Shown piece by piece: positions 11,857 through 58,930 of a stretch of DNA of 64,000 nucleotides. Numbering within the stretch: position 1 is the stretch's first letter; every line of letters begins with the position of its first letter. Position numbers and translations under genes: made by a program. The stretch lies in contig OZ026851.1 of the NCBI GenBank assembly GCA_964023205.1, forward strand, positions 17,739,528 to 17,803,527, written 5' to 3'. The notes below the pieces were generated by a model. It was not told where the DNA came from, did no database searches, and saw nothing but the letters and a program-made list of their open reading frames with translations. This DNA is from Lutraria lutraria. Taxonomy: Eukaryota > Mollusca > Bivalvia > Venerida > Mactridae.

Positions 11857-11867
11857 TGACAATACCT

Positions 11868-28737: not shown

Positions 28738-28782
28738 GGTTCTCGTGCACCAAACTACAGACAAGTCAACGAGAACCACTTT
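28738..28782. repeat. Smaller inverted repeat related to the hairpin at 29021
   Basis: CTGGTTCTCGTGCACCAAAC at the left and GACAAGTCAACGAGAACCA at the right. The outer roughly 10 bp pair perfectly. The reverse complement aligns to 28990-29053 with a short insertion (around CTGCATCATGGAAC), so the two are diverged copies in opposite orientation. Confidence 0.7.
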
Positions 28783-29020
28783 ATATCCTGTCATCAAATT
28801 GAATAATAATAATATCACCTTGGTTAATTTTAAATTCTATACAATTTTTTAAAATTATTTTATTTGAACAAATAACCTCGCTGTTCTCTAAATTGCATAG
28901 ATAATTACTTGGCTTTTTTACGTAGTTCGTGAAACAAGCTAACAGATTCCGGAGTTGTCGACCGTTGTCTCTCTAGGTACCATACTAAACTGGTTCCCGT
29001 TGACTTGTGTGTACAAAGCC

Positions 29021-29088
29021 CTTTGGTGCACTGCATCATGGAACGGGAACCAGTTTAGGTTCCCGTTCCATGTTGCAGTGCACCAAAG
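29021..29088. repeat. Near-perfect hairpin: 31-bp arms, 6-nt loop
   Basis: The left arm 29021-29051 (starting CTTTGGTGCACTGCATCATG) and right arm 29058-29088 pair at 30 of 31 positions around the loop AGTTTA. The hairpin sits about 40 bp from the SINE B box and just outside the satellite. A related inverted pair lies at 28738-28782 (ends CTGGTTCTCGT / ACGAGAACCA), and CTGGTTCCCGTTGACTTG at 28990 matches the reverse of that pair, so 28738-29088 is a nest of related inverted copies. Confidence 0.9.
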
Positions 29089-29094
29089 CTTTAG

Positions 29095-29206
29095 ACAGCT
29101 TCGTCGCATGTTAAATTTGGACCTGCGTGGGTTTCGAACTCACAGCGATAAGAGGCTAAGCATTATTAGTAAGAGACCAGAACCCCTAAACCACGGAGAG
29201 TCAGCT
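29095..29206 (-). mobile_element. tRNA-like SINE head, progenitor of the 43-bp satellite
   Basis: On the minus strand, an A box TGGTTTAGGGG (29183-29193) and a B box AGTTCGAAACC (29130-29140) lie 42 nt apart, the normal layout of a tRNA-type Pol III promoter. Sequence beyond the B box (GCATGTTAAATT, read on plus) matches the SINE at 10.6 kb, so this is a family member and not a chance match. The A-box half is the first unit of the satellite. The B-box half appears only here. The right end of the SINE has become the array, so the element's 5' boundary is not defined. Confidence 0.8.
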
Positions 29207-32200
29207 TATAAGTAAGAGACCAGAACCCCTAAACCACGGAGATTCAGCTTATAAGTAAGATACCAGAACCCCTAAACCACGGAGAGTCCGCTTATAAGTA
29301 AGAGACCAGAACCCCTAAACCACGGAGAGTCAGCTTATAAGTAAGAGACCAGAACCCCTAAACCACGGAGATTCAGCTTATAAGTAAGATACCAGAACCC
29401 CTAAACCACGGAGAGTCCGCTTATAAGTAAGAGACCAGAACCCCTAAACCACGGAGAGTCAGCTTATAAGTAAGAGACCAGAACCCCTAAACCACGGAGA
29501 TTCAGCTTATAAGTAAGAGACTAGAACCCCTAAACCACGGAGATTCAGCTTATAAGTAAGAGACCAGAACCCCTAAACCACGGAGATTCAGCTTATAAGT
29601 AAGAGACAAGAACCCCTAAACCACGGAGATTCAGCTTATAAGTAAGAGACCAGAACCCCTAAACCACGGAGAGTCCGCTTATAAGTAAGAGACCAGAACC
29701 CCTAAACCACGGAGATTCAGCTTATAAGTAAGAGACAAGAACCCCTAAACCACGGAGAGTCCGCTTATAAGTAAGAGACCAGAACCCCTAAACCACGGAG
29801 AGTCCGCTTATAAGTAAGAGACCAGAACCCCTAAACCACGGAGAGTCCGCTTATAAGTAAGAGACCAGAACCCCTAAACCACGGAGAGTCCGCTTATAAG
29901 TAAGAGACCAGAACCCCTAAACCACGGAGAGTCCGCTTATAAGTAAGAGACCAGAACCCCTAAACCACGGAGAGTCCGCTTATAAGTAAGAGACCAGAAC
30001 CCCTAAACCACAGAGAGTCCGCTTATAAGTAAGAGACAAGAACCCCTAAACCACGGAGAGTCCGCTTATAAGTAAGAGACTAGAACCCCTAAACCACGGA
30101 GAGTCCGCTTATAAGTAAGAGACAAGAACCCCTAAACCACGAAGAGTCAGCTTATAAGTAAGAGACAAGAACCCCTAAACCACAGAGAGTCCGCTTATAA
30201 GTAAGAGACCAGAACCCCTAAACCACAGAGAGTCCGCTTATAAGTAAGAGACCAGAACCCCTAAACCACGAAGAGTCAGCTTATAAGTAAGAGACTAGAA
30301 CCCCTAAACCACGGAGAGTCCGCTTATAAGTAAGAGACCAGAACCCCTAAACCACAGAGAGTCAGCTTATAAGTAAGAGACAAGAACCCCTAAACCACAG
30401 AGAGTCCGCTTATAAGTAAGAGACTAGAACCCCTAAACCACGGAGATTCAGCTTATAAGTAAGAGACCAGAACCCCTAAACCACGGAGATTCAGCTTATA
30501 AGTAAGAGACCAGAACCCCTAAACCACAGAGAGTCAGCTTATAAGTAAGAGACAAGAACCCCTAAACCACGGAGAGTCAGCTTATAAGTAAGAGACAAGA
30601 ACCCCTAAACCACGGAGATTCAGCTTATAAGTAAGAGACCAGAACCCCTAAACCAAGGAGATTCAGCTTATAAGTAAGAGACTAGAACCCCTAAACCACA
30701 GAGAGTCAGCTTATAAGTAAGAGACAAGAACCCCTAAACCACGGAGAGTCCGCTTATAAGTAAGAGACAAGAACCCCTAAACCACGGAGATTCAGCTTAT
30801 AAGTAAGAGACCAGAACCCCTAAACCACGGAGATTCAGCTTATAAGTAAGAGACCAGAACCCCTAAACCACAGAGAGTCAGCTTATAAGTAAGAGACAAG
30901 AACCCCTAAACCACGGAGAGTCCGCTTATAAGTAAGAGACAAGAACCCCTAAACCACGGAGATTCAGCTTATAAGTAAGAGACCAGAACCCCTAAACCAC
31001 GGAGATTCAGCTTATAAGTAAGAGACTAGAACCCCTAAACCACGGAGAGTCCGCTTATAAGTAAGAGACCAGAACCCCTAAACCACGGAGATTCAGCTTA
31101 TAAGTAAGAGACTAGAACCCCTAAACCACGGAGAGTCAGCTTATAAGTAAGAGACCAGAACCCCTAAACCACGGAGATTCAGCTTATAAGTAAGAGACCA
31201 GAACCCCTAAACCACAGAGAGTCCGCTTATAAGTAAGAGACAAGGACCCCTAAACCACAGAGAGTCCGCTTATAAGTAAGAGACCAGAACCCCTAAACCA
31301 CGGAGATTCAGCTTATAAGTAAGAGACTAGAACCCCTAAACCACGGAGATTCAGCTTATAAGTAAGAGACAAGGACCCCTAAACCACAGAGAGTCCGCTT
31401 ATAAGTAAGAGACCAGAACCCCTAAACCACGGAGAGTCAGCTTATAAGTAAGAGACAAGAACCCCTAAACCACGGAGAGTCAGCTTATAAGTAAGAGACC
31501 AGAACCCCTAAACCACGGAGATTCAGCTTATAAGTAAGAGACTAGAACCCCTAAACCACGGAGAGTCAGCTTATAAGTAAGAGACAAGAACCCCTAAACC
31601 ACGGAGAGTCAGCTTATAAGTAAGAGACCAGAACCCCTAAACCACGGAGAGTCCGCTTATAAGTAAGAGACCAGAACCCCTAAACCACGGAGATTCAGCT
31701 TATAAGTAAGAGACCAGAACCCATAAACCAAGGAGATTCAGCTTATAAGTAAGAGACCAGAACCCCTAAACCACGGAGATTCAGCTTATAAGTAAGAGAC
31801 AAGAACCCCTAAACCAAGGAGATTCAGCTTATAAGTAAGAGACCAGAACCCCTAAACCACGGAGATTCAGCTTATAAGTAAGAGACAAGAACCCCTAAAC
31901 CACGGAGAGTCCGCTTATAAGTAAGAGACCAGAACCCCTAAACCAAGGAGATTCAGCTTATAAGTAAGAGACAAGAACCCCTAAACCACGGAGAGTCAGC
32001 TTATAAGTAAGAGACAAGAACCCCTAAACCACGGAGAGTCCGCTTATAAGTAAGAGACCAGAACCCCTAAACCACGGAGAGTCAGCTTATAAGTAAGAGA
32101 CTAGAACCCCTAAACCACGGAGAGTCCGCTTATAAGTAAGAGACCAGAACCCCTAAACCATGGAGAGTCAGCTTATAAGTAAGAGACAAGAACCCCTAAA

Positions 32201-35200
32201 CCACGGAGATTCAGCTTATAAGTAAGAGACAAGAACCCCTAAACCACAGAGATTCAGCTTATAAGTAAGAGACAAGAACCCCTAAACCACGGAGATTCAG
32301 CTTATAAGTAAGAGACTAGAACCCCTAAACCATGGAGAGTCCGCTTATAAGTAAGAGACCAGAACCCCTAAACCACGGAGATTCAGCTTATAAGTAAGAG
32401 ACCAGAACCCCTAAACCACGGAGATTCCGCTTATAAATAAGAGACCAGAACCCCTAAACCACGGAGAGTCAGCTTATAAGTAAGAGACCAGAACCCCTAA
32501 ACCACGGAGAGTCAGCTTATAAGTAAGAGACTAGAACCCCTAAACCACGGAGAGTCCGCTTATAAGTAAGAGACCAGAACCCCTAAACCACGGAGATTCA
32601 GCTTATAAGTAAGAGACAAGAACCCCTAAACCATGGAGATTCCGCTTATAAGTAAGAGACAAGAACCCCTAAACCACGGAGAGTCCGCTTATAAGTAAGA
32701 GACCAGAACCCCTAAACCACGGAGATTCAGCTTATAAGTAAGAGACAAGAACCCCTAAACCATGGAGATTCAGCTTATAAGTAAGAGACAAGAACCCCTA
32801 AACCACGGAGATTCAGCTTATAAGTAAGAGACAAGAACCCCTAAACCACGGAGATTCAGCTTATAAGTAAGAGACAAGAATCCCTAAACCATGGAGATTC
32901 AGCTTATAAGTAAGAGACAAGAACCCCTAAACCATGGAGATTCAGCTTATAAGTAAGAGACAAGAACCCCTAAACCACGGAGATTCAGCTTATAAGTAAG
33001 AGACCAGAACTCCTAAACCACGGAGATTCAGCTTATAAGTAAGAGACCAGAACCCCTAAACCACGGAGATTCAGCTTATAAGTAAGAGACAAGAACCCCT
33101 AAACCACGGAGATTCAGCTTATAAGTAAGAGACAAGAACCCCTAAACCATGGAGATTCAGCTTATAAGTAAGAGACAAGAACCCCTAAACCATGGAGATT
33201 CAGCTTATAAGTAAGAGACTAGAACCCCTAAACCACGGAGATTCAGCTTATAAGTAAGAGACCAGAACCCCTAAACCACGGAGAGTCCGCTTATAAGTAA
33301 GAGACAAAAACCCCTAAACCACAGAGATTCAGCTTATAAGTAAGAGACCAGAACCCCTAAACCACAGAGATTCAGCTTATAAGTAAGAGACCAGAACCCC
33401 TAAACCACAGAGATTCAGCTTATAAGTAAGAGACCAGAACCCCTAAACCACAGAGATTCAGCTTATAAGTAAGAGACAAGAACCCCTAAACCACAGAGAG
33501 TCCGCTTATAAGTAAGAGACCAGAACCCCTAAACCACAGAGATTCAGCTTATAAGTAAGAGACAAGAACCCCTAAACCACAGAGAGTCCGCTTATAAGTA
33601 AGAGACAAGAACCCCTAAACCACGGAGAGTCCGCTTATAAGTAAGAGACCAGAACCCCTAAACCACAGAGATTCCGCTTATAAGTAAGAGACCAGAACCC
33701 CTAAACCACAGAGATTCCGCTTATAAGTAAGAGACAAGAACCCCTAAACCACGGAGATTCCGCTTATAAGTAAGAGACTAGAACCCCTAAACCACGGAGA
33801 GTCCGCTTATAAGTAAGAGACCAGAACCCCTAAACCACGGAGATTCCGCTTATAAGTAAGAGACCAGAACCCCTAAACCACGGAGAGTCAGCTTATAAGT
33901 AAGAGACCAGAACCCCTAAACCACGGAGAGTCAGCTTATAAGTAAGAGACCAGACTCCTAAACCACGGAGATTCAGCTTATAAGTAAGAGACAAGAACCC
34001 CTAAACCACGGAGATTCAGCTTATAAGTAAGAGACCAGAACCCCTAAACCACGGAGAGTCAGCTTATAAGTAAGAGACCAGAACCCCTAAACCACGGAGA
34101 GTCAGCTTATAAGTAAGAGACCAGAACCCCTAAACCAAGGAGATTCAGCTTATAAGTAAGAGACAAGAACCCCTAAACCACGGAGAGTCCGCTTATAAGT
34201 AAGAGACCAGAACCCCTAAACCACGGAGATTCCGCTTATAAATAAGAGACCAGAACCCCTAAACCACGGAGAGTCAGCTTATAAGTAAGAGACCAGAACC
34301 CCTAAACCACGGAGAGTCAGCTTATAAGTAAGAGACTAGGACCCCTAAACCAAGGAGAGTCAGCTTATAAGTAAGAGACCAGACTCCTAAACCACGGAGA
34401 TTCAGCTTATAAGTAAGAGACAAGAACCCCTAAACCACGGAGAGTCAGCTTATAAGTAAGAGACCAGAACCCCTAAACCACGGAGAGTCCGCTTATAAGT
34501 AAGAGACCAGAACCCCTAAACCACGGAGAGTCAGCTTATAAGTAAGAGACCAGACTCCTAAACCACGGAGATTCAGCTTATAAGTAAGAGACAAGAACCC
34601 CTAAACCACGGAGATTCAGCTTATAAGTAAGAGACCAGAACCCCTAAACCACGGAGATTCAGCTTATAAGTAAGAGACCAGGACCCCTAAACCACGGAGA
34701 TTCAGCTTATAAGTAAGAGACCAGAACCCCTAAACCACGGAGATTCAGCTTATAAGTAAGAGACAAGAACCCCTAAACCACGGAGATTCAGCTTATAAGT
34801 AAGAGACAAGAACCCCTAAACCACGGAGATTCAGCTTATAAGTAAGAGACCAGAACCCCTAAACCACAGAGAGTCCGCTTATAAGTAAGAGACCAGAACC
34901 CCTAAACCACGGAGATTCAGCTTATAAGTAAGAGACAAGAACCCCTAAACCACGGAGATTCAGCTTATAAGTAAGAGACCAGAACCCCTAAACCACGGAG
35001 AGTCCGCTTATAAGTAAGAGACCAGAACCCCTAAACCACGGAGAGTCCGCTTATAAGTAAGAGACCAGAACCCCTAAACCACGGAGATTCAGCTTATAAG
35101 TAAGAGACCAGAACCCCTAAACCACGGAGAGTCAGCTTATAAGTAAGAGACCAGAACCCCTAAACCACAGAGAGTCAGCTTATAAGTAAGAGACCAGAAC

Positions 35201-35999
35201 CCCTAAACCACAGAGATTCAGCTTATAAGTAAGAGACCAGAACCCCTAAACCACAGAGAGTCCGCTTATAAGTAAGAGACCAGAACCCCTAAACCACAGA
35301 GAGTCCGCTTATAAGTAAGAGACCAGAACCCCTAAACCACAGAGAGTCAGCTTATAAGTAAGAGACCAGAACCCCTAAACCACGGAGAGTCAGCTTATAA
35401 GTAAGAGACCAGACTCCTAAACCACGGAGATTCAGCTTATAAGTAAGAGACAAGAACCCCTAAACCACGGAGAGTCAGCTTATAAGTAAGAGACAAGAAC
35501 CCCTAAACCACGGAGATTCAGCTTATAAGTAAGAGACAAGAACCCCTAAACCACGGAGAGTCAGCTTATAAGTAAGAGACCAGAACCCCTAAACCACAGA
35601 GAGTCAGCTTATAAGTAAGAGACCAGAACCCCTAAACCACGGAGAGTCAGCTTATAAGTAAGAGACCAGAACCCCTAAACCACGGAGAGTCAGCTTATAA
35701 GTAAGAGACAAGAACCCCTAAACCACGGAGAGTCAGCTTATAAGTAAGAGACCAGGACCCCTAAACCACGGAGATTCAGCTTATAAGTAAGAGACCAGAA
35801 CCCCTAAACCACGGAGAGTCAGCTTATAAGTAAGAGACAAGAAACCCTAAACCACGGAGAGTCAGCTTATAAGTAAGAGACCAGGACCCCTAAACCACGG
35901 AGATTCAGCTTATAAGTAAGAGACCAGAACCCCTAAACCACGGAGAGTCAGCTTATAAGTAAGAGACCAGGACCCCTAAACCACGGAGATTCAGCTTAT

Positions 36000-37090
36000 A
36001 AGTAAGAGACAAGAACCCCTAAACCACGGAGAGTCAGCTTATAAGTAAGAGACAAGGACCCCAAAACCACGGAGATTCAGCTTATAAGTAAGAGACCAGA
36101 ACCCCTAAACCACAGAGAGTCAGCTTATAAGTAAGAGACAAGAACCCCTAAACCACGGAGAGTCAGCTTATAAGTAAGATACCAGAACCCCTAAACCACG
36201 GAGAGTCAGCTTATAAGTAAGAGACCAGAACCCCTAAACCACGGAGAGTCAGCTTATAAGTAAGATACCAGAACCCCTAAACCACGGAGAGTCAGCTTAT
36301 AAGTAAGATACCAGAACCCCTAAACCACAGAGAGTCAGCTTATAAGTAAGAGACAAGAACCCCTAAACCACGGAGAGTCAGCTTATAAGTAAGATACCAG
36401 AACCCCTAAACCACGGAGAGTCAGCTTATAAGTAAGATACCAGAACCCCTAAACCACGGAGAGTCAGCTTATAAGTAAGAGACAAGAACCCCTAAACCAC
36501 GGAGAGTCAGCTTATAAGTAAGATACCAGAACCCCTAAACCACAGAGAGTCAGCTTATAAGTAAGAGACCAGAACCCCTAAACCACGGAGAGTCAGCTTA
36601 TAAGTAAGATACCAGAACCCCTAAACCACGGAGAGTCAGCTTATAAGTAAGAGACCAGAACCCCTAAACCACGGAGAGTCAGCTTATAAGTAAGATACCA
36701 GAACCCCTAAACCACGGAGAGTCAGCTTATAAGTAAGATACCAGAACCCCTAAACCACAGAGAGTCAGCTTATAAGTAAGAGACAAGAACCCCTAAACCA
36801 CGGAGAGTCAGCTTATAAGTAAGATACCAGAACCCCTAAACCACGGAGAGTCAGCTTATAAGTAAGATACCAGAACCCCTAAACCACGGAGAGTCAGCTT
36901 ATAAGTAAGAGACAAGAACCCCTAAACCACGGAGAGTCAGCTTATAAGTAAGATACCAGAACCCCTAAACCACAGAGAGTCAGCTTATAAGTAAGAGACC
37001 AGAACCCCTAAACCACGGAGAGTCAGCTTATAAGTAAGATACCAGAACCCCTAAACCACGGAGAGTCAGCTTATAAGTAAGAGACAAGAA
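36000..37090. repeat. Satellite block with 10-unit (430 bp) higher-order repeat, copy 1
   Basis: Scoring units by AAGATACC / AAGAGACC / AAGAGACA and CACGG / CACAG gives a ten-unit order that repeats twice exactly between about 36177 and 37040. The same 23-unit order reappears at 39.7-40.8 kb, offset by 3,696 bp (86 units, two of them 42 bp). The AAGATACC variant is otherwise rare in the array. Confidence 0.9.
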
Positions 37091-37479
37091 CCCCTAAACC
37101 ACGGAGATTCAGCTTATAAGTAAGAGACCAGAACCCCTAAACCACAGAGAGTCCGCTTATAAGTAAGAGACCAGAACCCCTAACCCACGGAGATTCAGCT
37201 TATAAGTAAGAGACCAGAACCCCTAAACCACGGAGATTCAGCTTATAAGTAAGAGACCAGAACCCCTAAACCACGGAGATTCAGCTTATAAGTAAGAGAC
37301 CAGAACCCCTAAACCACGGAGATTCAGCTTATAAGTAAGAGACAAGAACCCCTAAACCACGGAGATTCAGCTTATAAGTAAGAGACAAGAACCCCTAAAC
37401 CACGGAGATTCAGCTTATAAGTAAGAGACAAGAACCCCTAAACCACGGAGATTCAGCTTATAAGTAAGAGACCAGAACC

Positions 37480-38390
37480 CCTAAACCACAGAGAGTCAGC
37501 TTATAAGTAAGAGACCAGAACCCCTAAACCACAGAGAGTCCGCTTATAAGTAAGAGACCAGAACCCCTAAACCACAGAGAGTCCGCTTATAAGTAAGAGA
37601 CCAGAACCCCTAAACCACAGAGAGTCCGCTTATAAGTAAGAGACCAGAACCCCTAAACCACAGAGAGTCAGCTTATAAGTAAGAGACCAGAACCCCTAAA
37701 CCACGGAGAGTCAGCTTATAAGTAAGAGACCAGACTCCTAAACCACGGAGATTCAGCTTATAAGTAAGAGACAAGAACCCCTAAACCACGGAGAGTCAGC
37801 TTATAAGTAAGAGACAAGGACCCCTAAACCACGGAGATTCAGCTTATAAGTAAGAGACAAGAACCCCTAAACCACGGAGATTCAGCTTATAAGTAAGAGA
37901 CAAGAACCCCTAAACCACGGAGAGTCAGCTTATAAGTAAGAGACCAGAACCCCTAAACCACAGAGAGTCCGCTTATAAGTAAGAGACCAGAACCCCTAAA
38001 CCACAGAGAGTCCGCTTATAAGTAAGAGACCAGAACCCCTAAACCACAGAGAGTCCGCTTATAAGTAAGAGACCAGAACCCCTAAACCACAGAGAGTCAG
38101 CTTATAAGTAAGAGACCAGAACCCCTAAACCACGGAGAGTCAGCTTATAAGTAAGAGACCAGACTCCTAAACCACGGAGATTCAGCTTATAAGTAAGAGA
38201 CAAGAACCCCTAAACCACGGAGAGTCAGCTTATAAGTAAGAGACAAGGACCCCTAAACCACGGAGATTCAGCTTATAAGTAAGAGACAAGAACCCCTAAA
38301 CCACGGAGATTCAGCTTATAAGTAAGAGACAAGAACCCCTAAACCACGGAGAGTCAGCTTATAAGTAAGAGACCAGAACCCCTAAACCAC
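37480..38390. repeat. Satellite 10-unit (429 bp) higher-order repeat, two copies
   Basis: The 42-bp AGACTCC unit recurs at 37732 and 38161, exactly 429 bp apart. The nine units around it follow the same variant order: three CACAG/GAGTCCG units, CACAG/GAGTCAG, CACGG/GAGTCAG, AGACTCC, then four ACAAG units. A degenerate relative lies near 35.1-35.5 kb. Confidence 0.9.
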
Positions 38391-38499
38391 AGAGAGTCAG
38401 CTTATAAGTACGAGACCAGAACCCCTAAACCACGGAGAGTCAGCTTATAAGTAAGAGACCAGAACCCCTAAACCACGGAGAGTCAGCTTATAAGTAAGA

Positions 38500-39200
38500 G
38501 ACAAGAACCCCTAAACCACGGAGAGTCAGCTTATAAGTAAGAGACCAGGACCCCTAAACCACGGAGATTCAGCTTATAAGTAAGAGACCAGAACCCCTAA
38601 ACCACAGAGAGTCAGCTTATAAGTAAGAGACAAGAACCCCTAAACCACGGAGAGTCAGCTTATAAGTAAGAGACCAGGACCCCTAAACCACGGAGATTCA
38701 GCTTATAAGTAAGAGACCAGAACCCCTAAACCACGGAGAGTCAGCTTATAAGTAAGAGACAAGAACCCCTAAACCACGGAGAGTCAGCTTATAAGTAAGA
38801 GACCAGGACCCCTAAACCACGGAGATTCAGCTTATAAGTAAGAGACCAGAACCCCTAAACCACGGAGAGTCAGCTTATAAGTAAGAGACCAGAACCCCTA
38901 AACCACAGAGAGTCAGCTTATAAGTAAGAGACAAGAACCCCTAAACCACGGAGAGTCAGCTTATAAGTAAGAGACCAGGACCCCTAAACCACGGAGATTC
39001 AGCTTATAAGTAAGAGACCAGAACCCCTAAACCACGGAGAGTCAGCTTATAAGTAAGAGACAAGAACCCCTAAACCACGGAGAGTCAGCTTATAAGTAAG
39101 AGACCAGGACCCCTAAACCACGGAGATTCAGCTTATAAGTAAGAGACCAGAACCCCTAAACCACGGAGAGTCAGCTTATAAGTAAGAGACCAGGACCCCT
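38500..39200. repeat. Satellite 3-unit (129 bp) higher-order repeat
   Basis: The ACCAGGACC variant recurs at 38543, 38672, 38801, 38973, 39102 and 39188. Spacings are 129, 129, 172, 129 and 86 bp, so a three-unit period is broken by single-unit gains and losses. Confidence 0.85.
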
Positions 39201-39696
39201 AAACCACAGAGATTCAGCTTATAAGTAAGAGACAAGAACCCCTAAACCACGGAGATTCAGCTTATAAGTAAGAGACAAGAACCCCTAAACCACGGAGAGT
39301 CAGCTTATAAGTAAGAGACAAGGACCCCTAAACCACGGAGATTCAGCTTATAAGTAAGAGACCAGAACCCCTAAACCACGGAGAGTCAGCATATAAGTAA
39401 GAGACAAGAACCCCTAAACCACGGAGAGTCAGCTTATAAGTAAGATACCAGAACCCCTAAACCACAGAGAGTCCGCTTATAAGTAAGAGACAAGGACCCC
39501 TAAACCACGGAGAGTCAGCTTATAAGTAAGAGACAAGGACCCCTAAACCACAGAGAGTCAGCTTATAAGTAAGAGACAAGGACCCCTAAACCACGGAGAG
39601 TCAGCTTATAAGTAAGAGACAAGAACCCCTAAACCACAGAGAGTCCGCTTATAAGTAAGAGACAAGAACCCCTAAACCACGGAGATTCAGCTTATA

Positions 39697-40786
39697 AGTA
39701 AGAGACAAGAACCCCTAAACCACGGAGAGTCAGCTTATAAGTAAGAGACAAGGACCCCTAAACCACGGAGATTCAGCTTATAAGTAAGAGACCAGAACCC
39801 CTAAACCACAGAGAGTCAGCTTATAAGTAAGAGACAAGAACCCCTAAACCACGGAGAGTCAGCTTATAAGTAAGATACCAGAACCCCTAAACCACGGAGA
39901 GTCAGCTTATAAGTAAGAGACCAGAACCCCTAAACCACGGAGAGTCAGCTTATAAGTAAGATACCAGAACCCCTAAACCACGGAGAGTCAGCTTATAAGT
40001 AAGATACCAGAACCCCTAAACCACAGAGAGTCAGCTTATAAGTAAGAGACAAGAACCCCTAAACCACGGAGAGTCAGCTTATAAGTCAGATACCAGAACC
40101 CCTAAACCACGGAGAGTCAGCTTATAAGTAAGATACCAGAACCCCTAAACCACGGAGAGTCAGCTTATAAGTAAGAGACAAGAACCCCTAAACCACGGAG
40201 AGTCAGCTTATAAGTAAGATACCAGAACCCCTAAACCACAGAGAGTCAGCTTATAAGTAAGAGACCAGAACCCCTAAACCACGGAGAGTCAGCTTATAAG
40301 TAAGATACCAGAACCCCTAAACCACGGAGAGTCAGCTTATAAGTAAGAGACCAGAACCCCTAAACCACGGAGAGTCAGCTTATAAGTAAGATACCAGAAC
40401 CCCTAAACCACGGAGAGTCAGCTTATAAGTAAGATACCAGAACCCCTAAACCACAGAGAGTCAGCTTATAAGTAAGAGACAAGAACCCCTAAACCACGGA
40501 GAGTCAGCTTATAAGTAAGATACCAGAACCCCTAAACCACGGAGAGTCAGCTTATAAGTAAGATACCAGAACCCCTAAACCACGGAGAGTCAGCTTATAA
40601 GTAAGAGACAAGAACCCCTAAACCACGGAGAGTCAGCTTATAAGTAAGATACCAGAACCCCTAAACCACAGAGAGTCAGCTTATAAGTAAGAGACCAGAA
40701 CCCCTAAACCACGGAGAGTCAGCTTATAAGTAAGATACCAGAACCCCTAAACCACGGAGAGTCAGCTTATAAGTAAGAGACAAGAA
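39697..40786. repeat. Satellite block with 10-unit (430 bp) higher-order repeat, copy 2
   Basis: Same unit order as 36000-37090, including the flanking AAGGACC/GATTCAG and CACAG/GAGTCAG units. The one visible difference is a private AGTCAGATACC in one unit near 40086. The block therefore moved or was duplicated as about 1.09 kb. Confidence 0.9.
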
Positions 40787-43559: not shown

Positions 43560-44360
43560 AAGTAAGAGACCAGAACCCCTAAACCACAGAGAGTCCGCTT
43601 ATAAGTAAGAGACCAGAACCCCTAAACCACAGAGAGTCCGCTTATAAGTAAGAGACCAGAACCCCTAAACCACAGAGAGTCCGCTTATAAGTAAGAGACA
43701 AGAACCCCTAAACCACAGAGAGTCCGCTTATAAGTAAGAGACCAGAACCCCTAAACCACAGAGAGTCCGCTTATAAGTAAGAGACCAGAACCCCTAAACC
43801 ACGGAGATTCAGCTTATAAGTAAGAGACCAGAACCCCTAAACCACAGAGAGTCCGCTTATAAGAAAGAGACCAGAACCCCTAAACCACAGAGAGTCCGCT
43901 TATAAGTAAGAGACCAGAACCCCTAAACCACAGAGAGTCCGCTTATAAGTAAGAGACCAGAACCCCTAAACCACAGAGAGTCCGCTTATAAGTAAGAGAC
44001 CAGAACCCCTAAACCACAGAGAGTCCGCTTATAAGTAAGAGACCAGAACCCCTAAACCACGGAGATTCAGCTTATAAGTAAGAGACCAGAACCCCTAAAC
44101 CACAGAGAGTCCGCTTATAAGTAAGAGACCAGAACCCCTAAACCACAGAGAGTCCGCTTATAAGTAAGAGACCAGAACCCCTAAACCACAGAGAGTCCGC
44201 TTATAAGTAAGAGACCAGAACCCCTAAACCACAGAGAGTCCGCTTATAAGTAAGAGACCAGAACCCCTAAACCACAGAGAGTCCGCTTATAAGTAAGAGA
44301 CCAGAACCCCTAAACCACGGAGATTCAGCTTATAAGTAAGAGACAAGAACCCCTAAACCA
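43560..44360. repeat. Satellite 6-unit (258 bp) higher-order repeat
   Basis: Five CACAG/GAGTCCG units alternate with one CACGG/GATTCAG unit. The latter recurs at 43801, 44059 and 44317, exactly 258 bp apart each time. Confidence 0.9.
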
Positions 44361-46402: not shown

Positions 46403-47005
46403 AGAGACAAGGACCCCTAAACCACGGAGATTCAGCTTATAAGTAAGAGACCAGAACCCTAAACCACGGAGAGTTCAGCTTATAAGTAAGAGACAAGGAC
46501 CCCTAAACCACGGAGAGTCCGCTTATAAGTAAGAGACCAGAACCCCTAAACCACGGAGAGTCCGCTTATAAGTAAGAGACAAGGACCCCTAAACCACAGA
46601 GAGTCAGCTTATAAGTAAGAGACCAGAACCCCTAAACCACGGAGAGTCCGCTTATAAGTAAGAGACAAGGACCCCTAAACCACGGAGAGTCCGCTTATAA
46701 GTAAGAGACAAGGACCCCTAAACCACGGAGAGTCCGCTTATAAGTAAGAGACAAGGACCCCTAAACCACGGAGAGTCCGCTTATAAGTAAGAGACAAGGA
46801 CCCCTAAACCACAGAGAGTCAGCTTATAAGTAAGAGACCAGAACCCCTAAACCACGGAGAGTCCGCTTATAAGTAAGAGACAAGGACCCCTAAACCACAG
46901 AGAGTCAGCTTATAAGTAAGAGACCAGAACCCCTAAACCACAGAGAGTCCGCTTATAAGTAAGAGACAAGAACCCCTAAACCACAGAGAGTCCGCTTATA
47001 AGTAA
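46403..47005. repeat. Satellite 14-unit block, duplicated at 48424
   Basis: A run rich in ACAAGGACC units has the same order of 14 variants as 48424-49025, displaced by 2,021 bp, which is exactly 47 units. One unit here carries a compensating 1-bp loss and 1-bp gain (AGAACCCTAAACC and GAGTTCAG). Confidence 0.85.
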
Positions 47006-50000
47006 GAGACCAGAACCCCTAAACCACAGAGAGTCCGCTTATAAGTAAGAGACCAGAACCCCTAAACCACGGAGATTCAGCTTATAAGTAAGAGACTAGA
47101 ACCCCTAAACCACGGAGAGTCCGCTTATAAGTAAGAGACAAGAACCCCTAAACCACGGAGATTCAGCTTATAAGTAAGAGACAAGAACCCCTAAACCACA
47201 GAGAGTCCGCTTATAAGTAAGAGACCAGAACCCCTAAACCACAGAGAGTCCGCTTATAAGTAAGAGACAAGAACCCCTAAACCACAGAGAGTCCGCTTAT
47301 AAGTAAGAGACAAGAACCCCTAAACCACAGAGAGTCCGCTTATAAGTAAGAGACAAGAACCCCTAAACCACGGAGAGTCAGCTTATAAGTAAGAGACAAG
47401 AACCCCTAAACCACAGAGAGTCCGCTTATAAGTAAGAGACAAGAACCCCTAAACCACAGAGAGTCCGCTTATAAGTAAGAGACAAGAACCCCTAAACCAC
47501 AGAGAGTCAGCTTATAAGTAAGAGACAAGAACCCCTAAACCACGGAGAGTCCGCTTATAAGTAAGAGACAAGAACCCCTAAACCACAGAGAGTCCGCTTA
47601 TAAGTAAGAGACAAGAACCCCTAAACCACAGAGAGTCCGCTTATAAGTAAGAGACAAGAACCCCTAAACCACAGAGAGTCCGCTTATAAGTAAGAGACAA
47701 GAACCCCTAAACCACGGAGAGTCCGCTTATAAGTAAGAGACCAGAACCCCTAAACCACGGAGATTCAGCTTATAAGTAAGAGACAAGAACCCCTAAACCA
47801 CAGAGAGTCCGCTTATAAGTAAGAGACAAGAACCCCTAAACCACAGAGAGTCCGCTTATAAGTAAGAGACCAGAACCCCTAAACCACGGAGAGTCCGCTT
47901 ATAAGTAAGAGACCAGAACCCCTAAACCACGGAGAGTCAGCTTATAAGTAAGAGACCAGAACCCCTAAACCACGGAGAGTCCGCTTATAAGTAAGAGACA
48001 AGAACCCCTAAACCACGGAGAGTCCGCTTATAAGTAAGAGACCAGAACCCCTAAACCACGGAGAGTCCGCTTATAAGTAAGAGACCAGAACCCCTAAACC
48101 ACGGAGAGTCCGCTTATAAGTAAGAGACCAGAACCCCTAAACCACGGAGAGTCCGCTTATAAGTAAGAGACAAGAACCCCTAAACCACGGAGAGTCCGCT
48201 TATAAGTAAGAGACAAGAACCCCTAAACCACGGAGAGTCCGCTTATAAGTAAGAGACCAGAACCCCTAAACCACGGAGAGTCCGCTTATAAGTAAGAGAC
48301 CAGAACCCCTAAACCACGGAGAGTCCGCTTATAAGTAAGAGACAAGAACCCCTAAACCACGGAGAGTCCGCTTATAAGTAAGAGACCAGAACCCCTAAAC
48401 CACGGAGAGTCCGCTTATAAGTAAGAGACAAGGACCCCTAAACCACGGAGATTCAGCTTATAAGTAAGAGACCAGAACCCCTAAACCACGGAGATTCAGC
48501 TTATAAGTAAGAGACAAGGACCCCTAAACCACGGAGAGTCCGCTTATAAGTAAGAGACCAGAACCCCTAAACCACGGAGAGTCCGCTTATAAGTAAGAGA
48601 CAAGGACCCCTAAACCACAGAGAGTCAGCTTATAAGTAAGAGACCAGAACCCCTAAACCACGGAGAGTCCGCTTATAAGTAAGAGACAAGGACCCCTAAA
48701 CCACGGAGAGTCCGCTTATAAGTAAGAGACAAGGACCCCTAAACCACGGAGAGTCCGCTTATAAGCAAGAGACAAGGAACCCTAAACCACGGAGAGTCCG
48801 CTTATAAGTAAGAGACAAGGACCCCTAAACCACAGAGAGTCAGCTTATAAGTAAGAGACCAGAACCCCTAAACCACGGAGAGTCCGCTTATAAGTAAGAG
48901 ACAAGGACCCCTAAACCACAGAGAGTCAGCTTATAAGTAAGAGACCAGAACCCCTAAACCACAGAGAGTCCGCTTATAAGTAAGAGACAAGAACCCCTAA
49001 ACCACAGAGAGTCCGCTTATAAGTAAGAGACAAGAACTCCTAAACCACGGAGAGTCCGCTTATAAGTAAGAGACCAGAACCCCTAAACCACAGAGAGTCC
49101 GCTTATAAGTAAGAGACCAGAACCCCTAAACCACGGAGAGTCCGCTTATAAGTAAGAGACCAGAACCCCTAAACCACAGAGATTCAGCTCATAAGTAAGA
49201 GACCAGAACCCCTAAACCACAGAGAGTCAGCTTATAAGTAAGAGACCAGAACCCCTAAACCACGGAGATTCAGCTTATAAGTAAGAGACCAGAACCCCTA
49301 AACCACAGAGAGTCAGCTTATAAGTAAGAGACCAGAACCCCTAAACCACAGAGAGTCCGCTTATAAGTAAGAGACCAGAACCCCTAAACCACAGAGAGTC
49401 CGCTTATAAGTAAGAGACAAGAACCCCTAAACCACAGAGAGTCCGCTTATAAGTAAGAGACAATGACCCCTAAACCACAGAGAGTCCGCTTATAAGTAAG
49501 AGACCAGAACCCCTAAACCACGGAGAGTCCGCTTATAAGTAAGAGACCAGAACCCCTAAACCACGGAGATTCAGCTTATAAGTAAGAGACCAGAACCCCT
49601 AAACCACGGAGATTCAGCTTATAAGTAAGAGACCAGAACCCCTAAACCACGGAGAGTCCGCTTATAAGTAAGAGACCAGAACCCCTAAACCACGGAGAGT
49701 CCGCTTATAAGTAAGAGACCAGAACCCCTAAACCACGGAGAGTCCGCTTATAAGTAAGAGACCAGAACCCCTAAACCACGGAGAGTCCGCTTATAAGTAA
49801 GAGACCAGAACCCCTAAACCACGGAGATTCAGCTTATAAGTAAGAGACCAGAACCCCTAAACCACGGAGAGTCCGCTTATAAGTAAGAGACCAGAACCCC
49901 TAAACCACAGAGAGTCCGCTTATAAGTAAGAGACCAGAACCCCTAAACCACAGAGAGTCCGCTTATAAGTAAGAGACAAGAACCCCTAAACCACGGAGAT

Positions 50001-50510
50001 TCAGCTTATAAGTAAGAGACAAGAACCCCTAAACCACAGAGAGTCCGCTTATAAGTAAGAGACCAGAACCCCTAAACCACGGAGAGTCCGCTTATAAGTA
50101 AGAGACCAGAACCCCTAAACCACGGAGATTCAGCTTATAAGTAAGAGACCAGAACCCCTAAACCACAGAGAGTCCGCTTATAAATAAGAGACCAGAACCC
50201 CTAAACCACGGAGATTCAGCTTATAAGTAAGAGACCAGAACCCCTAAACCACAGAGAGTCCGCTTATAAATAAGAGACCAGAACCCCTAAACCACAGAGA
50301 GTCCGCTTATAAGTAAGAGACAAGAACCCCTAAACCACAGAGAGTCCGCTTATAAGTAAGAGACCAGAACCCCTAAACCACAGAGAGTCCGCTTATAAGT
50401 AAGAGACCAGAACCCCTAAACCACGGAGAGTCCGCTTATAAGTAAGAGACCAGAACCCCTAAACCACGGAGATTCAGCTTATAAGTAAGAGACCAGAACC
50501 CCTAAACCAC

Positions 50511-52745
50511 GGACAGTCCGCTTATAAGTAAGAGACAAGAACCCCTAAACCACGGAGATTCAGCTTATAAGTAAGAGACCAGAACCCCTAAACCACAGAG
50601 AGTCCGCTTATAAGTAAGAGACCAGAACCCCTAAACCACGGAGATTCAGCTTATAAGTAAGAGACAAGAACCCCTAAACCACAGAGAGTCCGCTTATAAG
50701 TAAGAGACCAGAACCCCTAAACCACGGAGATTCAGCTTATAAGTAAGAGACAAGAACCCCTAAACCACAGAGAGTCCGCTTATAAGTAAGAGACCAGAAC
50801 CCCTAAACCACAGAGAGTCCGCTTATAAGTAAGAGACCAGAACCCCTAAACCACAGAGAGTCCGCTTATAAGTAAGAGACAAGAACCCCTAAACCACAGA
50901 GAGTCCGCTTATAAGTAAGAGACCAGAACCCCTAAACCACGGAGATTCAGCTTATAAGTAAGAGACAAGAACCCCTAAACCACAGAGAGTCCGCTTATAA
51001 GTAAGAGACCAGAACCCCTAAACCACAGAGAGTCCGCTTATAAGTAAGAGACCAGAACCCCTAAACCACAGAGAGTCCGCTTATAAGTAAGAGACAAGGA
51101 CCCCTAAACCACAGAGAGTCCGCTTATAAGTAAGAGACCAGAACCCCTAAACCACGGAGATTCAGCTTATAAGTAAGAGACAAGGACCCCTAAACCACGG
51201 AGATTCAGCTTATAAGTAAGAGACAAGAACCCCTAAACCACGGAGAGTCAGCTTATAAGTAAGAGACCAGAACCCCTAAACCACAGAGAGTCCGCTTATA
51301 AGTAAGAGACAAGAACCCCTAAACCACGGAGATTCAGCTTATAAGTAAGAGACAAGGACCCCTAAACCACGGAGAGTCAGCATATAAGTAAGAGACCAGA
51401 ACCCCTAAACCACAGAGAGTCAGCTTATAAGTAAGAGACCAGAACCCCTAAACCACGGAGATTCAGCTTATAAGTAAGAGACAAGGACCCCTAAACCACG
51501 GAGAGTCAGCTTATAAGTAAGAGACCAGAACCCCTAAACCACAGAGAGTCAGCTTATAAGTAAGAGACAAGAACCCCTAAACCACGGAGATTCAGCTTAT
51601 AAGTAAAAGACCAGAACCCCTAAACAACGGACAGTCCGCTTATAAGTAAGAGACAAGAACCCCTAAACCACGGAGATTCAGCTTATAAGTAAGAGACCAG
51701 AACCCCTAAACCACAGAGAGTCCGCTTATAAGTAAGAGACCAGAACCCCTAAACCACGGAGATTCAGCTTATAAGTAAGAGACAAGAACCCCTAAACCAC
51801 AGAGAGTCCGCTTATAAGTAAGAGACCAGAACCCCTAAACCACGGAGATTCAGCTTATAAGTAAGAGACAAGAACCCCTAAACCACAGAGAGTCCGCTTA
51901 TAAGTAAGAGACCAGAACCCCTAAACCACAGAGAGTCCGCTTATAAGTAAGAGACCAGAACCCCTAAACCACAGAGAGTCCGCTTATAAGTAAGAGACAA
52001 GAACCCCTAAACCACAGAGAGTCCGCTTATAAGTAAGAGACCAGAACCCCTAAACCACGGAGATTCAGCTTATAAGTAAGAGACAAGAACCCCTAAACCA
52101 CAGAGAGTCCGCTTATAAGTAAGAGACCAGAACCCCTAAACCACAGAGAGTCCGCTTATAAGTAAGAGACCAGAACCCCTAAACCACAGAGAGTCCGCTT
52201 ATAAGTAAGAGACAAGGACCCCTAAACCACAGAGAGTCCGCTTATAAGTAAGAGACCAGAACCCCTAAACCACGGAGATTCAGCTTATAAGTAAGAGACA
52301 AGGACCCCTAAACCACGGAGATTCAGCTTATAAGTAAGAGACAAGAACCCCTAAACCACGGAGAGTCAGCTTATAAGTAAGAGACCAGAACCCCTAAACC
52401 ACAGAGAGTCCGCTTATAAGTAAGAGACAAGAACCCCTAAACCACGGAGATTCAGCTTATAAGTAAGAGACAAGGACCCCTAAACCACGGAGAGTCAGCT
52501 TATAAGTAAGAGACCAGAACCCCTAAACCACAGAGAGTCAGCTTATAAGTAAGAGACCAGAACCCCTAAACCACGGAGATTCAGCTTATAAGTAAGAGAC
52601 AAGGACCCCTAAACCACGGAGAGTCAGCTTATAAGTAAGAGACCAGAACCCCTAAACCACAGAGAGTCAGCTTATAAGTAAGAGACAAGAACCCCTAAAC
52701 CACGGAGATTCAGCTTATAAGTAAGAGACAAGAACCCCTAAACCA
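50511..52745. repeat. Satellite 26-unit (1,118 bp) higher-order repeat, two copies
   Basis: The rare GGACAGTCCG unit occurs at 50511 and 51629, and ACAAGGACC landmarks occur at 51093 and 52211. Both pairs are 1,118 bp apart, exactly 26 units, and the variant order between them matches closely. GGACAGTCCG appears once more near 58856, at the right edge of the array. Confidence 0.88.
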
Positions 52746-55099
52746 CAGAGAGTCCGCTTATAAGTAAGAGACCAGAACCCCTAAACCACGGAGAGTCCGC
52801 TTATAAGTAAGAGACAAGAACCCCTAAACCACAGAGATTCAGCTTATAAGTAAGAGACAAGAACCCCTAAACCACGGAGAGTCCGCTTATAAGTAAGAGA
52901 CAAGAACCCCTAAACCACAGAGAGTCCGCTTATAAGTAAGAGACAAGAACCCCTAAACCACGGAGAGTCCGCTTATAAGTAAGAGACCAGAACCCCTAAA
53001 CCACAGAGAGTCCGCTTATAAGTAAGAGACCAGAACCCCTAAACCACGGAGAGTCCGCTTATAAGTAAGAGACCAGAACCCCTAAACCACAGAGAGTCCG
53101 CTTATAAGTAAGAGACCAGAACCCCTAAACCACGGAGAGTCCGCTTATAAGTAAGAGACCAGAACCCCTAAACCACGGAGATTCAGCTTATAAGTAAGAG
53201 ACAAGAACCCCTAAACCACAGAGAGTCCGCTTATAAGTAAGAGACCAGAACCCCTAAACCACGGAGATTCAGCTTATAAGTAAGAGACCAGAACCCCTAA
53301 ACCACAGAGAGTCCGCTTATAAGTAAGAGACCAGAACCCCTAAACCACGGAGATTCAGCTTATAAGTAAGAGACAAGAACCCCTAAACCACAGAGAGTCC
53401 GCTTATAAGTAAGAGACCAGAACCCCTAAACCACGGAGATTCAGCTTATAAGTAAGAGACCAGAACCCCTAAACCACAGAGAGTCCGCTTATAAGTAAGA
53501 GACAAGAACCCCTAAACCACAGAGAGTCCGCTTATAAGTAAGAGACCAGAACCCCTAAACCACGGAGATTCAGCTTATAAGTAAGAGACAAGAACCCCTA
53601 AACCACAGAGAGTCCGCTTATAAGTAAGAGACCAGAACCCCTAAACCACAGAGAGTCCGCTTATAAGTAAGAGACCAGAACCCCTAAACCACAGAGAGTC
53701 CGCTTATAAGTAAGAGACCAGAACCCCTAAACCACAGAGAGTCCGCTTATAAGTAAGAGACCAGAACCCCTAAACCACAGAGTAAACCACAGAGAGTCCG
53801 CTTATAAGTAAGAGACAAGAACCCCTAAACCACGGAGAGTCCGCTTATAAGTAAGAGACCAGAACCCCTAAACCACGGAGATTCAGCTTATAAGTAAGAG
53901 ACAAGGACCCCTAAACCACAGAGAGTCCGCTTATAAGTAAGAGACCAGAACCCCTAAACCACAGAGAGTCCGCTTATAAGTAAGAGACAAGGACCCCTAA
54001 ACCACGGAGATTCAGCTTATAAGTAAGAGACAAGGACCCCTAAACCACAGAGAGTCCGCTTATAAGTAAGAGACAAGGACCCCTAAACCACGGAGATTCA
54101 GCTTATAAGTAAGAGACAAGGACCCCTAAACCACGGAGATTCAGCTTATAAGTAAGAGACAAGAACCCCTAAACCACAGAGAGTCAGCTTATAAGTAAGA
54201 GACCAGAACCCCTAAACCACAGAGAGTCCGCTTATAAGTAAGAGACCAGAACCCCTAAACCACGGAGAGTCAGCTTATAAGTAAGAGACAAGAACCCCTA
54301 AACCACGGAGATTCAGCTTATAAGTAAGAGACCAGAACCCCTAAACCACGGAGAGTCCGCTTATAAGTAAGAGACCAGAACCCCTAAACCACAGAGAGTC
54401 CGCTTATAAGTAAGAGACAAGAACCCCTAAACCACAGAGAGTCCGCTTATAAGTAAGAGACCAGAACCCCTAAACCACAGAGAGTCCGCTTATAAGTAAG
54501 AGACAAGAACCCCTAAACCACAGAGAGTCCGCTTATAAGTAAGAGACCAGAACCCCTAAACCACAGAGAGTCCGCTTATAAGTAAGAGACAAGAACCCCT
54601 AAACCACAGAGAGTCCGCTTATAAGTAAGAGACCAGAACCCCTAAACCACGGAGATTCAGCTTATAAGTAAGAGACAAGAACCCCTAAACCACAGAGAGT
54701 CCGCTTATAAGTAAGAGACAAGAACCCCTAAACCACAGAGAGTCCGCTTATAAGTAAGAGACCAGAACCCCTAAACCACAGAGAGTCCGCTTATAAGTAA
54801 GAGACCAGAACCCCTAAACCACGGAGAGTCCGCTTATAAGTAAGAGACAAGGACCCCTAAACCACGGAGATTCAGCTTATAAGTAAGAGACAAGAACCCC
54901 TAAACCACGGAGAGTCCGCTTATAAGTAAGAGACAAGAACCCCTAAACCACAGAGAGTCCGCTTATAAGTAAGAGACCAGAACCCCTAAACCACGGAGAG
55001 TCCGCTTATAAGTAAGAGACCAGAACCCCTAAACCACGGAGATTCAGCTTATAAGTAAGAGACAAGAACCCCTAAACCACAGAGAGTCCGCTTATAAGT

Positions 55100-55660
55100 A
55101 AGAGACCAGACTCCTAAACCACAGAGATTCAGCTTATAAGTAAGAGACCAGAACCCCTAAACCACGGAGATTCAGCTTATAAGTAAGAGACAAGAACCCC
55201 TAAACCACGGAGATTCAGATTATAAGTAAGAGACAAGAACCCCTAAACCACAGAGAGTCCGCTTATAAGTAAGAGACCAGACTCCTAAACCACAGAGAGT
55301 CAGCTTATAAGTAAGAGACCAGAACCCCTAAACCACGGAGATTCAGCTTATAAGTAAGAGACCAGAACCCCTAAACCACGGAGATTCAGCTTATAAGTAA
55401 GAGACAAGAACCCCTAAACCACAGAGAGTCCGCATATAAGTAAGAGACCAGACTCCTAAACCACAGAGATTCAGCTTATAAGTAAGAGACCAGAACCCCT
55501 AAACCACGGAGAGTCCGCTTATAAGTAAGAGACCAGAACCCCTAAACCACGGAGATTCAGCTTATAAGTAAGAGACAAGAACCCCTAAACCACAGAGAGT
55601 CCGCTTATAAGTAAGAGACCAGACTCCTAAACCACAGAGAGTCAGCTTATAAGTAAGAGA
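55100..55660. repeat. Satellite 4-unit (171 bp) higher-order repeat
   Basis: The 42-bp AGACTCC unit recurs at 55108, 55279, 55450 and 55621, each 171 bp apart (three 43-bp units plus one 42-bp unit), with similar partners between. Confidence 0.9.
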
Positions 55661-58600
55661 CCAGAACCCCTAAACCACGGAGATTCAGCTTATAAGTAAG
55701 AGACAAGAACCCCTAAACCACAGAGAGTCAGCTTATAAGTAAGAGACAAGAACCCCTAAACCACAGAGAGTCCGCTTATAAGTAAGAGACCAGAACCCCT
55801 AAACCACAGAGAGTCCGCTTATAAGTAAGAGACAAGAACCCCTAAACCACGGAGATTCAGCTTATAAGTAAGAGACAAGGACCCCTAAACCACAGAGATT
55901 CAGCTTATAAGTAAGAGACAAGAACCCCTAAACCACGGAGATTCAGCTTATAAGTAAGAGACCAGACTCCTAAACCACAGAGAGTCCGCTTATAAGTAAG
56001 AGACAAGAACCCCTAAACCACGGAGATTCAGCTTATAAGTAAGAGACCAGAACCCCTAAACCACGGAGATTCAGCTTATAAGTAAGAGACCAGAACCCCT
56101 AAACCACAGAGAGTCAGCTTATAAGTAAGAGACCAGAACCCCTAAACCACGGAGATTCAGCTTATAAGTAAGAGACCAGACTCCTAAACCACGGAGATTC
56201 AGCTTATAAGTAAGAGACCAGAACCCCTAAACCACAGAGAGTCAGCTTATAAGTAAGAGACCAGAACCCCTAAACCACAGAGATTCAGCTTATAAGTAAG
56301 AGACCAGAACCCCTAAACCACAGAGATTCAGCTTATAAGTAAGAGACCAGAACCCCTAAACCACAGAGATTCAGCTTATAAGTAAGAGACAAGAACCCCT
56401 AAACCACGGAGATTCAGCTTATAAGTAAGAGACCAGACTCCTAAACCACGGAGATTCAGCTTATAAGTAAGAGACCAGAACCCCTAAACCACAGAGAGTC
56501 AGCTTATAAGTAAGAGACCAGAACCCCTAAACCACAGAGAGTCCGCTTATAAGTAAGAGACAAGAACCCCTAAACCACGGAGATTCAGCTTATAAGTAAG
56601 AGACAAGAACCCCTAAACCACAGAGAGTCCGCTTATAAGTAAGAGACCAGAACCCCTAAACCACAGAGAGTCCGCTTATAAGTAAGAGACCAGAACCCCT
56701 AAACCACGGAGATTCAGCTTATAAGTAAGAGACAAGGACCCCTAAACCACGGAGATTCAGCTTATAAGTAAGAGACCAGAACCCCTAAACCACGGAGAGT
56801 CCGCTTATAAGTAAGAGACCAGAACCCCTAAACCACGGAGATTCAGCTTATAAGTAAGAGACAAGAACCCCTAAACCACAGAGAGTCCGCTTATAAGTAA
56901 GAGACCAGACTCCTAAACCACAGAGATTCAGCTTATAAGTAAGAGACAAGAACCCCTAAACCACAGAGAGTCAGCTTATAAGTAAGAGACCAGACTCCTA
57001 AACCACGGAGATTCAGCTTATAAGTAAGAGACCAGAACCCCTAAACCACGGAGAGTCAGCTTATAAGTAAGAGACCAGACTCCTAAACCACGGAGATTCA
57101 GCTTATAAGTAAGAGACCAGAACCCCTAAACCACAGAGAGTCAGCTTATAAGTAAGAGACCAGAACCCCTAAACCACAGAGAGTCAGCTTATAAGTAAGA
57201 GACCAGAACCCCTAAACCACGGAGATTCAGCTTATAAGTAAGAGACAAGAACCCCTAAACCACAGAGAGTCCGCTTATAAGTAAGAGACCAGAACCCCTA
57301 AACCACAGAGAGTCAGCTTATAAGTAAGAGACCAGAACCCCTAAACCACAGAGAGTCCGCTTATAAGTAAGAGACAAGAACCCCTAAACCACGGAGATTC
57401 AGCTTATAAGTAAGAGACAAGAACCCCTAAACCACAGAGAGTCAGCTTATAAGTAAGAGACAAGAACCCCTAAACCACAGAGAGTCCGCTTATAAGTAAG
57501 AGACCAGAACCCCTAAACCACAGAGAGTCCGCTTATAAGTAAGAGACCAGAACCCCTAAACCACGGAGATTCAGCTTATAAGTAAGAGACAAGAACTCCT
57601 AAACCACAGAGAGTCCGCTTATAAGTAAGAGACAAGAACTCCTAAACCACAGAGAGTCCGCTTATAAGTAAGAGACAAGGACCCCTAAACCACAGAGATT
57701 CAGCTTATAAGTAAGAGACAAGAACCCCTAAACCACGGAGAGTCCGCTTATAAGTAAGAGACAAGAACTCCTAAACCACAGAGAGTCCGCTTATAAGTAA
57801 GAGACAAGAACTCCTAAACCACAGAGAGTCCGCTTATAAGTAAGAGACAAGAACTCCTAAACCACAGAGATTCAGCTTATAAGTAAGAGACAAGAACCCC
57901 TAAACCACGGAGAGTCCGCTTATAAGTAAGAGACAAGAACCCCTAAACCACAGAGAGTCCGCTTATAAGTAAGAGACAAGAACCCCTAAACCACGGAGAG
58001 TCCGCTTATAAGTAAGAGACCAGAACCCCTAAACCACAGAGAGTCCGCTTATAAGTAAGAGACAAGAACCCCTAAACCACGGAGATTCAGCTTATAAGTA
58101 AGAGACAAGAACCCCTAAACCACGGAGATTCAGCTTATAAGTAAGAGACCAGAACCCCTAAACCACAGAGAGTCCGCTTATAAGTAAGAGACAAGAACTC
58201 CTAAACCACGGAGATTCAGCTTATAAGTAAGAGACAAGAACCCCTAAACCACAGAGAGTCCGCTTATAAGTAAGAGACAAGAACCCCTAAACCACGGAGA
58301 TTCAGCTTATAAGTAAGAGACCAGAACCCCTAAACCACGGAGATTCAGCTTATAAGTAAGAGACAAGAACCCCTAAACCACGGAGATTCAGCTTATAAGT
58401 AAGAGACAAGAACCCCTAAACCACAGAGAGTCCGCTTATAAGTAAGAGACAAGAACCCCTAAACCACGGAGAGTCCGCTTATAAGTAAGAGACAAGAACC
58501 CCTAAACCACGGAGATTCAGCTTATAAGTAAGAGACCAGAACCCCTAAACCACAGAGAGTCCGCTTATAAGTAAGAGACCAGAACCCCTAAACCACGGAG

Positions 58601-58930
58601 ATTCAGCTTATAAGTAAGAGACAAGGACCCCTAAACCACAGAGATTCAGCTTATAAGTAAGAGACCAGAACCCCTAAACCACAGAGAGTCCGCTTATAAG
58701 TAAGAGACCAGAACCCCTAAACCACGGAGATTCAGCTTATAAGTAAGAGACCAGAACCCCTAAACCACGGAGATTCAGCTTATAAGTAAGAGACCAGAAC
58801 CCCTAAACCACGGAGAGTCAGCTTATAAGTAAGAGACCAGAACCCCTAAACCACGGACAGTCCGCTTATAAGTAAGAGACCAGAACCCCTAAACCACGGA
58901 GATTCAGCTTATAAGTAAGAGACCAGAACC

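Follow-up and report, generated by a model that had tools for sequence, protein, structure and literature searches.

A 43-bp satellite array in the bivalve Lutraria lutraria that very probably derives from the A-box half of a SINE

A 64,000-nucleotide stretch of the Lutraria lutraria genome (C20:17739528–17803527; hereafter the window) contains a tandem array of 692 units, mostly 43 bp in length, together with a partial unit of 22 nt (29163–58930, minus strand). The unit resembles the first part of a tRNA-like SINE, including its A box, and the low-coordinate edge of the array continues directly into the remainder of such an element. Relatives of this SINE are dispersed through the same genome with both halves joined and no duplicated unit. 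We consider it very probable that the array is a SINE-derived satellite, amplified by unequal exchange and gene conversion and probably without specific function.

The array and its junction with a SINE

TRF reported a period of 43, 692.5 copies, and 94% matches at 29163–58930. Cutting the array in a fixed register yielded 692 units (669 of 43 bp, 22 of 42 bp, and 1 of 55 bp), with the partial unit located at the high-coordinate edge (58909–58930). Both counts confirm the approximately 692 head-to-tail 43-bp units noticed in an earlier reading of the letters alone (the sequence-only reading). That reading placed the start of the array at 29095, which is instead the end of the B half of the SINE; the array proper begins at 29163. 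On the minus strand, the unit reads GCTGACTCTCCGTGGTTTAGGGGTTCTGGTCTCTTACTTATAA. We distinguished 83 unit types, 48 of which are singletons, and sampled 43-bp units exhibit a mean pairwise identity of 94.5%. The main variable columns of the unit are 3, 6, 11, 25, 28, and 31. Subvariants alternate along an array that is homogeneous overall, as judged from the identity, the number of types, and the lag structure described below. Variants present in only one or two units number 28 across the 669 x 43 bp, or approximately 1 per kb, which suggests that the present array is young relative to the SINE family.

The edge unit (29163–29205, minus strand) is contiguous with the B half of the SINE (29095–29162, minus strand), which comprises the rest of the head with its B box and the start of the body. 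The SINE can be followed in this way from 29205 to 29095; its 3' terminus is not reached because a MITE intervenes and cuts off the readable body. The sole A+B pair consists of the A box of the edge unit (TGGTTTAGGGG; 29183–29193, minus strand) and a B-box core (GTTCGAAAC; 29131–29139, minus strand). A distance of 43 nt, which is tRNA-like, separates the core from the A box in this last unit; the sequence-only reading had put the single B box of the SINE head at 42 nt. Scanning of both strands of 29095–58960 with the core GWTCRANNC returned this single match (29139–29131). No B core occurs within the repeat units; apart from the edge unit, which is followed by the B box, all are A-only. One stretch of the unit resembles a B box but carries three mismatches and lacks the core; it was given no weight.

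An A-box match (TRGYNNANNNG) was found in 671 of the 678 segments produced by an earlier, coarser cut of the array, and the exact sequence TGGTTTAGGGG in 639 of the 678. Almost all units thus carry the A box. Because 6.4% of letter-shuffled 43-bp units match the A box on one strand or the other by chance, the match by itself carries little information and was dropped as stand-alone evidence. The proposed SINE origin rests on homology to SINEs instead. Similarly, we use the label tRNA-like on the basis of the two boxes and the distance between them, because Rfam tRNA models produced no match to the array SINE up to an E value of 10. ARAGORN identified no tRNA gene.

The MITE that adjoins the end of the SINE is 72 bp in length (28986–29057, plus strand) and is joined by an inverted partial copy that extends to approximately 29089. 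A first genome search returned 1423 candidates for this element. At loci L001–L008, the MITE measures 71–72 bp and carries 16-bp terminal inverted repeats (TAAACTGGTTCCCGTT). Six of the eight loci have a 9-bp duplication in their flanks (four perfect, two with one mismatch); the window copy has none. A diverged relative of the MITE lies near 28740–28783. At the far edge of the array, positions 58925–58937 (GAACCGGTTTA) resemble a MITE end (GAACCAGTTTA), a likeness that perhaps reflects chance or perhaps a trace of how the end of the array was formed.

Dispersed relatives and the polarity of the array

The assembly, which comprises 728.5 Mb in 71 contigs, was searched with the 111-bp edge sequence. 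This search revealed at least 39 matches of 71–85% identity that are distributed over 16 contigs (48 candidates taken, 39 scored, and 39 listed). It skips simple repeats and common words; arrays therefore cannot appear in the list, and the counts are lower bounds. Indeed, the array locus itself is absent from the 39 matches even though it is identical to the query. In 22 of the 39 listed matches, the alignment spans the A box and continues past the B core, and at least 15 nt of each half are covered in 34 of the 39. According to the sequence-only reading, SINE relatives that lack the A-box segment would have spoken against its proposal; the 22 listed matches that span this region carry the segment.

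One relative of the SINE family lies in the window itself (10648–10754, minus strand), with A and B halves joined and no array. The edge sequence and this copy (10754–10648) are 73% identical over 108 columns, and each half remained alike when the two were tested apart (A half, p 0.001–0.002; B half, p 0.0005, 0 of 2000 shuffles). We aligned ten relatives in all: the window copy, a copy from the sampled stretch L013 (63% over 104 columns), and eight of the 39 genome matches, taken as 301-bp stretches from the better matches. For six of the ten, the selection was made from the top matches extending to the A box. In each of the ten, the A and B halves are joined, and the ten also share the beginning of the body that follows the B box. 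No second unit was found upstream of any of them within the 31–38 nt compared for eight and the 100 nt compared for two (p 0.13–0.99 against shuffles). A full A-box match is retained in six of the ten and a full B core likewise in six, which suggests that the SINE family is old and decaying. Two further partial relatives occur in the sampled stretches L027 and L029. Three SINE copies on C1 (7067724, 7072183, and 7076419) are spaced approximately 4.2–4.5 kb apart, two of them with equal score and identity; the trio perhaps arose through tandem duplication of a longer segment that includes the SINE.

The window also contains copies of a second SINE family, whose tRNA-like head we take to be Ser-like, at 11613–11849 (plus strand) and 2816–2991 (minus strand); further likely copies are found in L014 and L012. 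The copy at 11613–11849 gave a weak match to tRNA-Sec (E 0.2; 18.3 bits versus a gathering score of 47). The A half of the array SINE bears a likeness to this second family (p 0.0005–0.054), and the B half bears none (p 0.28–0.78).

Growth of the array from the SINE predicts that the SINE-adjacent unit should be the one closest to the SINE. At column 39, the edge unit and nine of the ten relatives contain A, whereas the other 668 units of 43 bp contain T. The edge unit also has the commonest base of the relatives at columns 11, 25, 28, and 31, and differs from it at columns 3 and 6. The commonest base of the relatives at column 3, G, is the other array allele (275 of 669 units), and columns 3 and 6 both fall in the first bases of the unit, where array and relatives match poorly. 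On balance, the SINE-adjacent unit appears closest to the SINE. The unit starts within approximately 1–3 bases of the inferred 5' end of the SINE, since the relatives agree with one another from approximately unit column 2–4. The far edge begins mid-unit; as a result, the original 5' flank of the SINE is not recognizable, and the target-site duplication is lost to view. The lack of a second unit in the relatives and the family base retained by the edge unit at column 39 indicate that the SINE gave rise to the satellite.

The opposite history, in which the 43-bp repeat is an older satellite that a SINE entered or joined by chance, with the likeness of the A half being accidental or acquired later, was raised by the sequence-only reading as the alternative to its own proposal of an origin from the A-box half. 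The rate of chance A-box matches in shuffled units, the mid-unit start of the far edge, and the many arrays in the genome would all be compatible with such a history. However, the A half is joined to the B half at other sites, both in the 22 listed matches that span the two boxes and in the ten aligned relatives, and the edge unit comes nearest to the family at column 39. These findings favor the original proposal and render an older satellite very improbable. We regard it as very unlikely that the array is the central repeat of a larger, Helitron-like DNA transposon that captured a piece of the SINE. Central tandem repeats of such elements can expand into satellites, as reported in PMC9659126, and inverted repeats do adjoin the low edge of the array. 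These inverted repeats, however, belong to the separate 72-bp MITE, which is found alone elsewhere and has a matching 9-bp flank duplication in six of eight loci; moreover, the left and right flanks of the array share only the unit itself. Long arrays often have uncertain copy numbers, and the assembly could have inflated a much shorter one. Simple inflation would repeat whole blocks, whereas the 83 unit types, the 48 singletons, and an order with only local repetition characterize the array, making substantial inflation highly improbable.

Growth, genomic setting, and proposed functions of the array

We propose that the array began with an old SINE of the dispersed tRNA-like family whose sense strand is the minus strand. 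The first ~40 nt of this element, which extend from the 5' end to the anticodon-loop region and include the A box, would have been duplicated along with 1–3 extra bases. Unequal exchange and gene conversion would then have expanded the duplication to ~692 units and kept the units alike. Reshuffling of variants, recurrence of unit types at short lags, and duplication of blocks are marks of these two processes. All four combinations of bases are found in 12 of the 15 pairs of common variable columns, and identical unit types recur at lags 1–8 and 10 above the level of all 1000 shuffles. A pattern of 10 units is evident between ~35.7 and 40.9 kb. Blocks have been duplicated within the array, with a run of 20 unit types recurring 26 units away and a run of 16 types recurring 86 units away.

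For the first duplication, a microhomology model that matched the 5' end of the unit to the sequence after the junction performed no better than shuffles (p 0.66). It is tempting to speculate that retrotransposition itself seeded the satellite, with reverse transcriptase leaving one SINE RNA at its 5' end and jumping into the middle of another. We consider this scenario rather unlikely; it is suggested by the start of the unit within 1–3 bases of the inferred 5' end of the SINE. If true, some SINE-derived satellites are born at insertion, such that LINE machinery makes the first repeats and recombination only enlarges them.

Long arrays of short units are common in this genome, and the 43-bp array differs from the others mainly in having a seed that can be named. 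TRF detected arrays longer than 1 kb in four of 20 sampled stretches of 10 kb (L013, L015, L020, and L021). The sample is small and non-random: ten stretches lie within ~100 kb of the window, three of which bear such arrays, and ten lie on C1, C3, and C4, one of which does. The L013 array has a 76-bp consensus built of a shorter repeat, and the units in L015 and L020 are 38 bp and 50 bp, respectively. The array in L021 (L021:1–7211; C1:5000001–5007211) consists of ~250 copies of a 29-bp unit and is cut at the start of the stretch. In style, the SINEs and the repeats in L002 and L020 appear to resemble those of marine bivalves. No second array of the 43-bp unit was found in the 232,628 bases of loci examined, although an older one may lie elsewhere in the genome. 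Within the window, TRF identified additional arrays at 59973–60601 (39 bp), 9536–9802 (34 bp), 15974–16474 (162 bp), 16565–16999 (74 bp), and 6935–7166 (78 bp). Copies of the 34-bp repeat are 100% identical, and the 74/78-bp repeats recur at 11862–12042 and 17931–18029. The 43-bp array, located at 17.74–17.80 Mb of a 20.79-Mb contig and ~3 Mb from the contig end, would be one of many minisatellite arrays in the genome. Five reading frames gave no Pfam match. A 271-aa open frame (62724–63539, minus strand), which has no Pfam match, resembles one database protein (42% identity over 60%) that originates from a 935-base contig. Pattern scans of viral and prokaryotic contigs returned 0 matches.

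The sequence-only reading further suggested that the array could recruit or sequester TFIIIC/Pol III, seed transcripts, or act as an insulator. In such a working platform, A boxes in their hundreds would bind TFIIIC or sequester it, transcripts would begin there, or the array would serve as an insulator. The A-box match in nearly all segments and the single full A+B pair, located at the edge, speak for this view, and animals are reported to have TFIIIC sites that lack Pol III (PMC4226948). In addition, the A box is free of the six common polymorphic columns, an outcome with a chance of ~0.15 by a count of combinations and weak evidence in favor of the platform. On the other hand, the 11 A-box columns hold 10 of the 42 distinct variants in 43-bp units, close to the 10.7 expected (P 0.48), so that variation in the A boxes is no lower than elsewhere in the unit. 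The units are devoid of a B core, and binding of yeast TFIIIC to A-only DNA is reported to be almost completely abolished, the B box being needed (PMC11724288). By analogy, A-only DNA would be poorly bound by TFIIIC in the host animal. The sole A+B pair begins within the last unit and is oriented outward, away from the array, with the first downstream TTTT near 28854. The array thus lies upstream of the edge promoter, and the proposed array transcripts do not follow from it. The array had also been described as free of T4 terminators; minus-strand TTTT is rare but present (four occurrences). No Rfam family, hammerhead-type RNA included, reached its gathering score in the window; folding of RNA from the SINE plus flank was no stronger than that of shuffles (z 0.05), and a CENP-B box was not found. 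From these features of the sequence, a Pol III function for the array is not supported, the platform described above is very improbable, and the array is probably neutral.

Relation to known SINE-derived satellites

SINE-derived satellites (sSats) have been described in squamates, where individual loci comprise up to 320, nearly 950, and more than 1200 units (PMC10702118). As described in that study, sSats resemble the present array in several respects: the unit is a portion of a SINE, the terminal unit is longer and passes into the SINE, and subvariants alternate, with long squamate arrays being more homogeneous. The snake sSat differs in that its 67-nt unit contains a B box and part of the body, whereas the 43-bp unit has only an A box, so that the two are mirror images of each other. 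The gecko sSat3Gja2 combines the 5' part of a SINE with ~30 nt of unknown origin in a unit of ~150 nt, compared with 43 bp here. Squamate sSats are also described as preferring subtelomeric regions (PMC10702118); the present array lies ~3 Mb short of the end of its 20.8-Mb contig.

Among molluscs, PcH-sat of the limpet Patella caerulea is likewise a satellite tied to a SINE family (PMC11121367). Its 179-bp unit, however, includes a 118-bp segment from the 3' part of Nin-SINE that is described as having no A or B box, and the satellite is pericentromeric and occupies ~10% of the genome (PMC11121367). Hy/Pol III in Hydromantes, PolIII/TAN in Cynops, OAX/satellite 1 in Xenopus, and Rana/polIII are tandem and tRNA-like as well, and Hy/polIII is said to be without box B; unlike the 43-bp unit, their units measure ~200 nt or more (PMC9659126, PMC6947457, PMC10702118). 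The link of these repeats to SINEs is considered inconclusive in PMC10702118, whereas the present array has dispersed relatives in the same genome.

The sequence-only reading called the array unusual. This assessment is weakened by published SINE-derived satellites that equal the array in build and size, at least as described in PMC10702118. A unit formed by the A-box half alone was not found described in the open literature that we searched. The array is a clear if rather ordinary instance of a satellite formed from a transposon fragment, here with an A-box-only unit. It is also a clean case of the passage from dispersed element to satellite, in that the junction, the edge unit, and the dispersed relatives can be read in one genome, and it sets an A-box-only unit alongside the snake units with their B box. 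Whether sSats occur only in squamates was left open in PMC10702118. A 43-bp SINE-derived array in Lutraria lutraria would argue against such a restriction.
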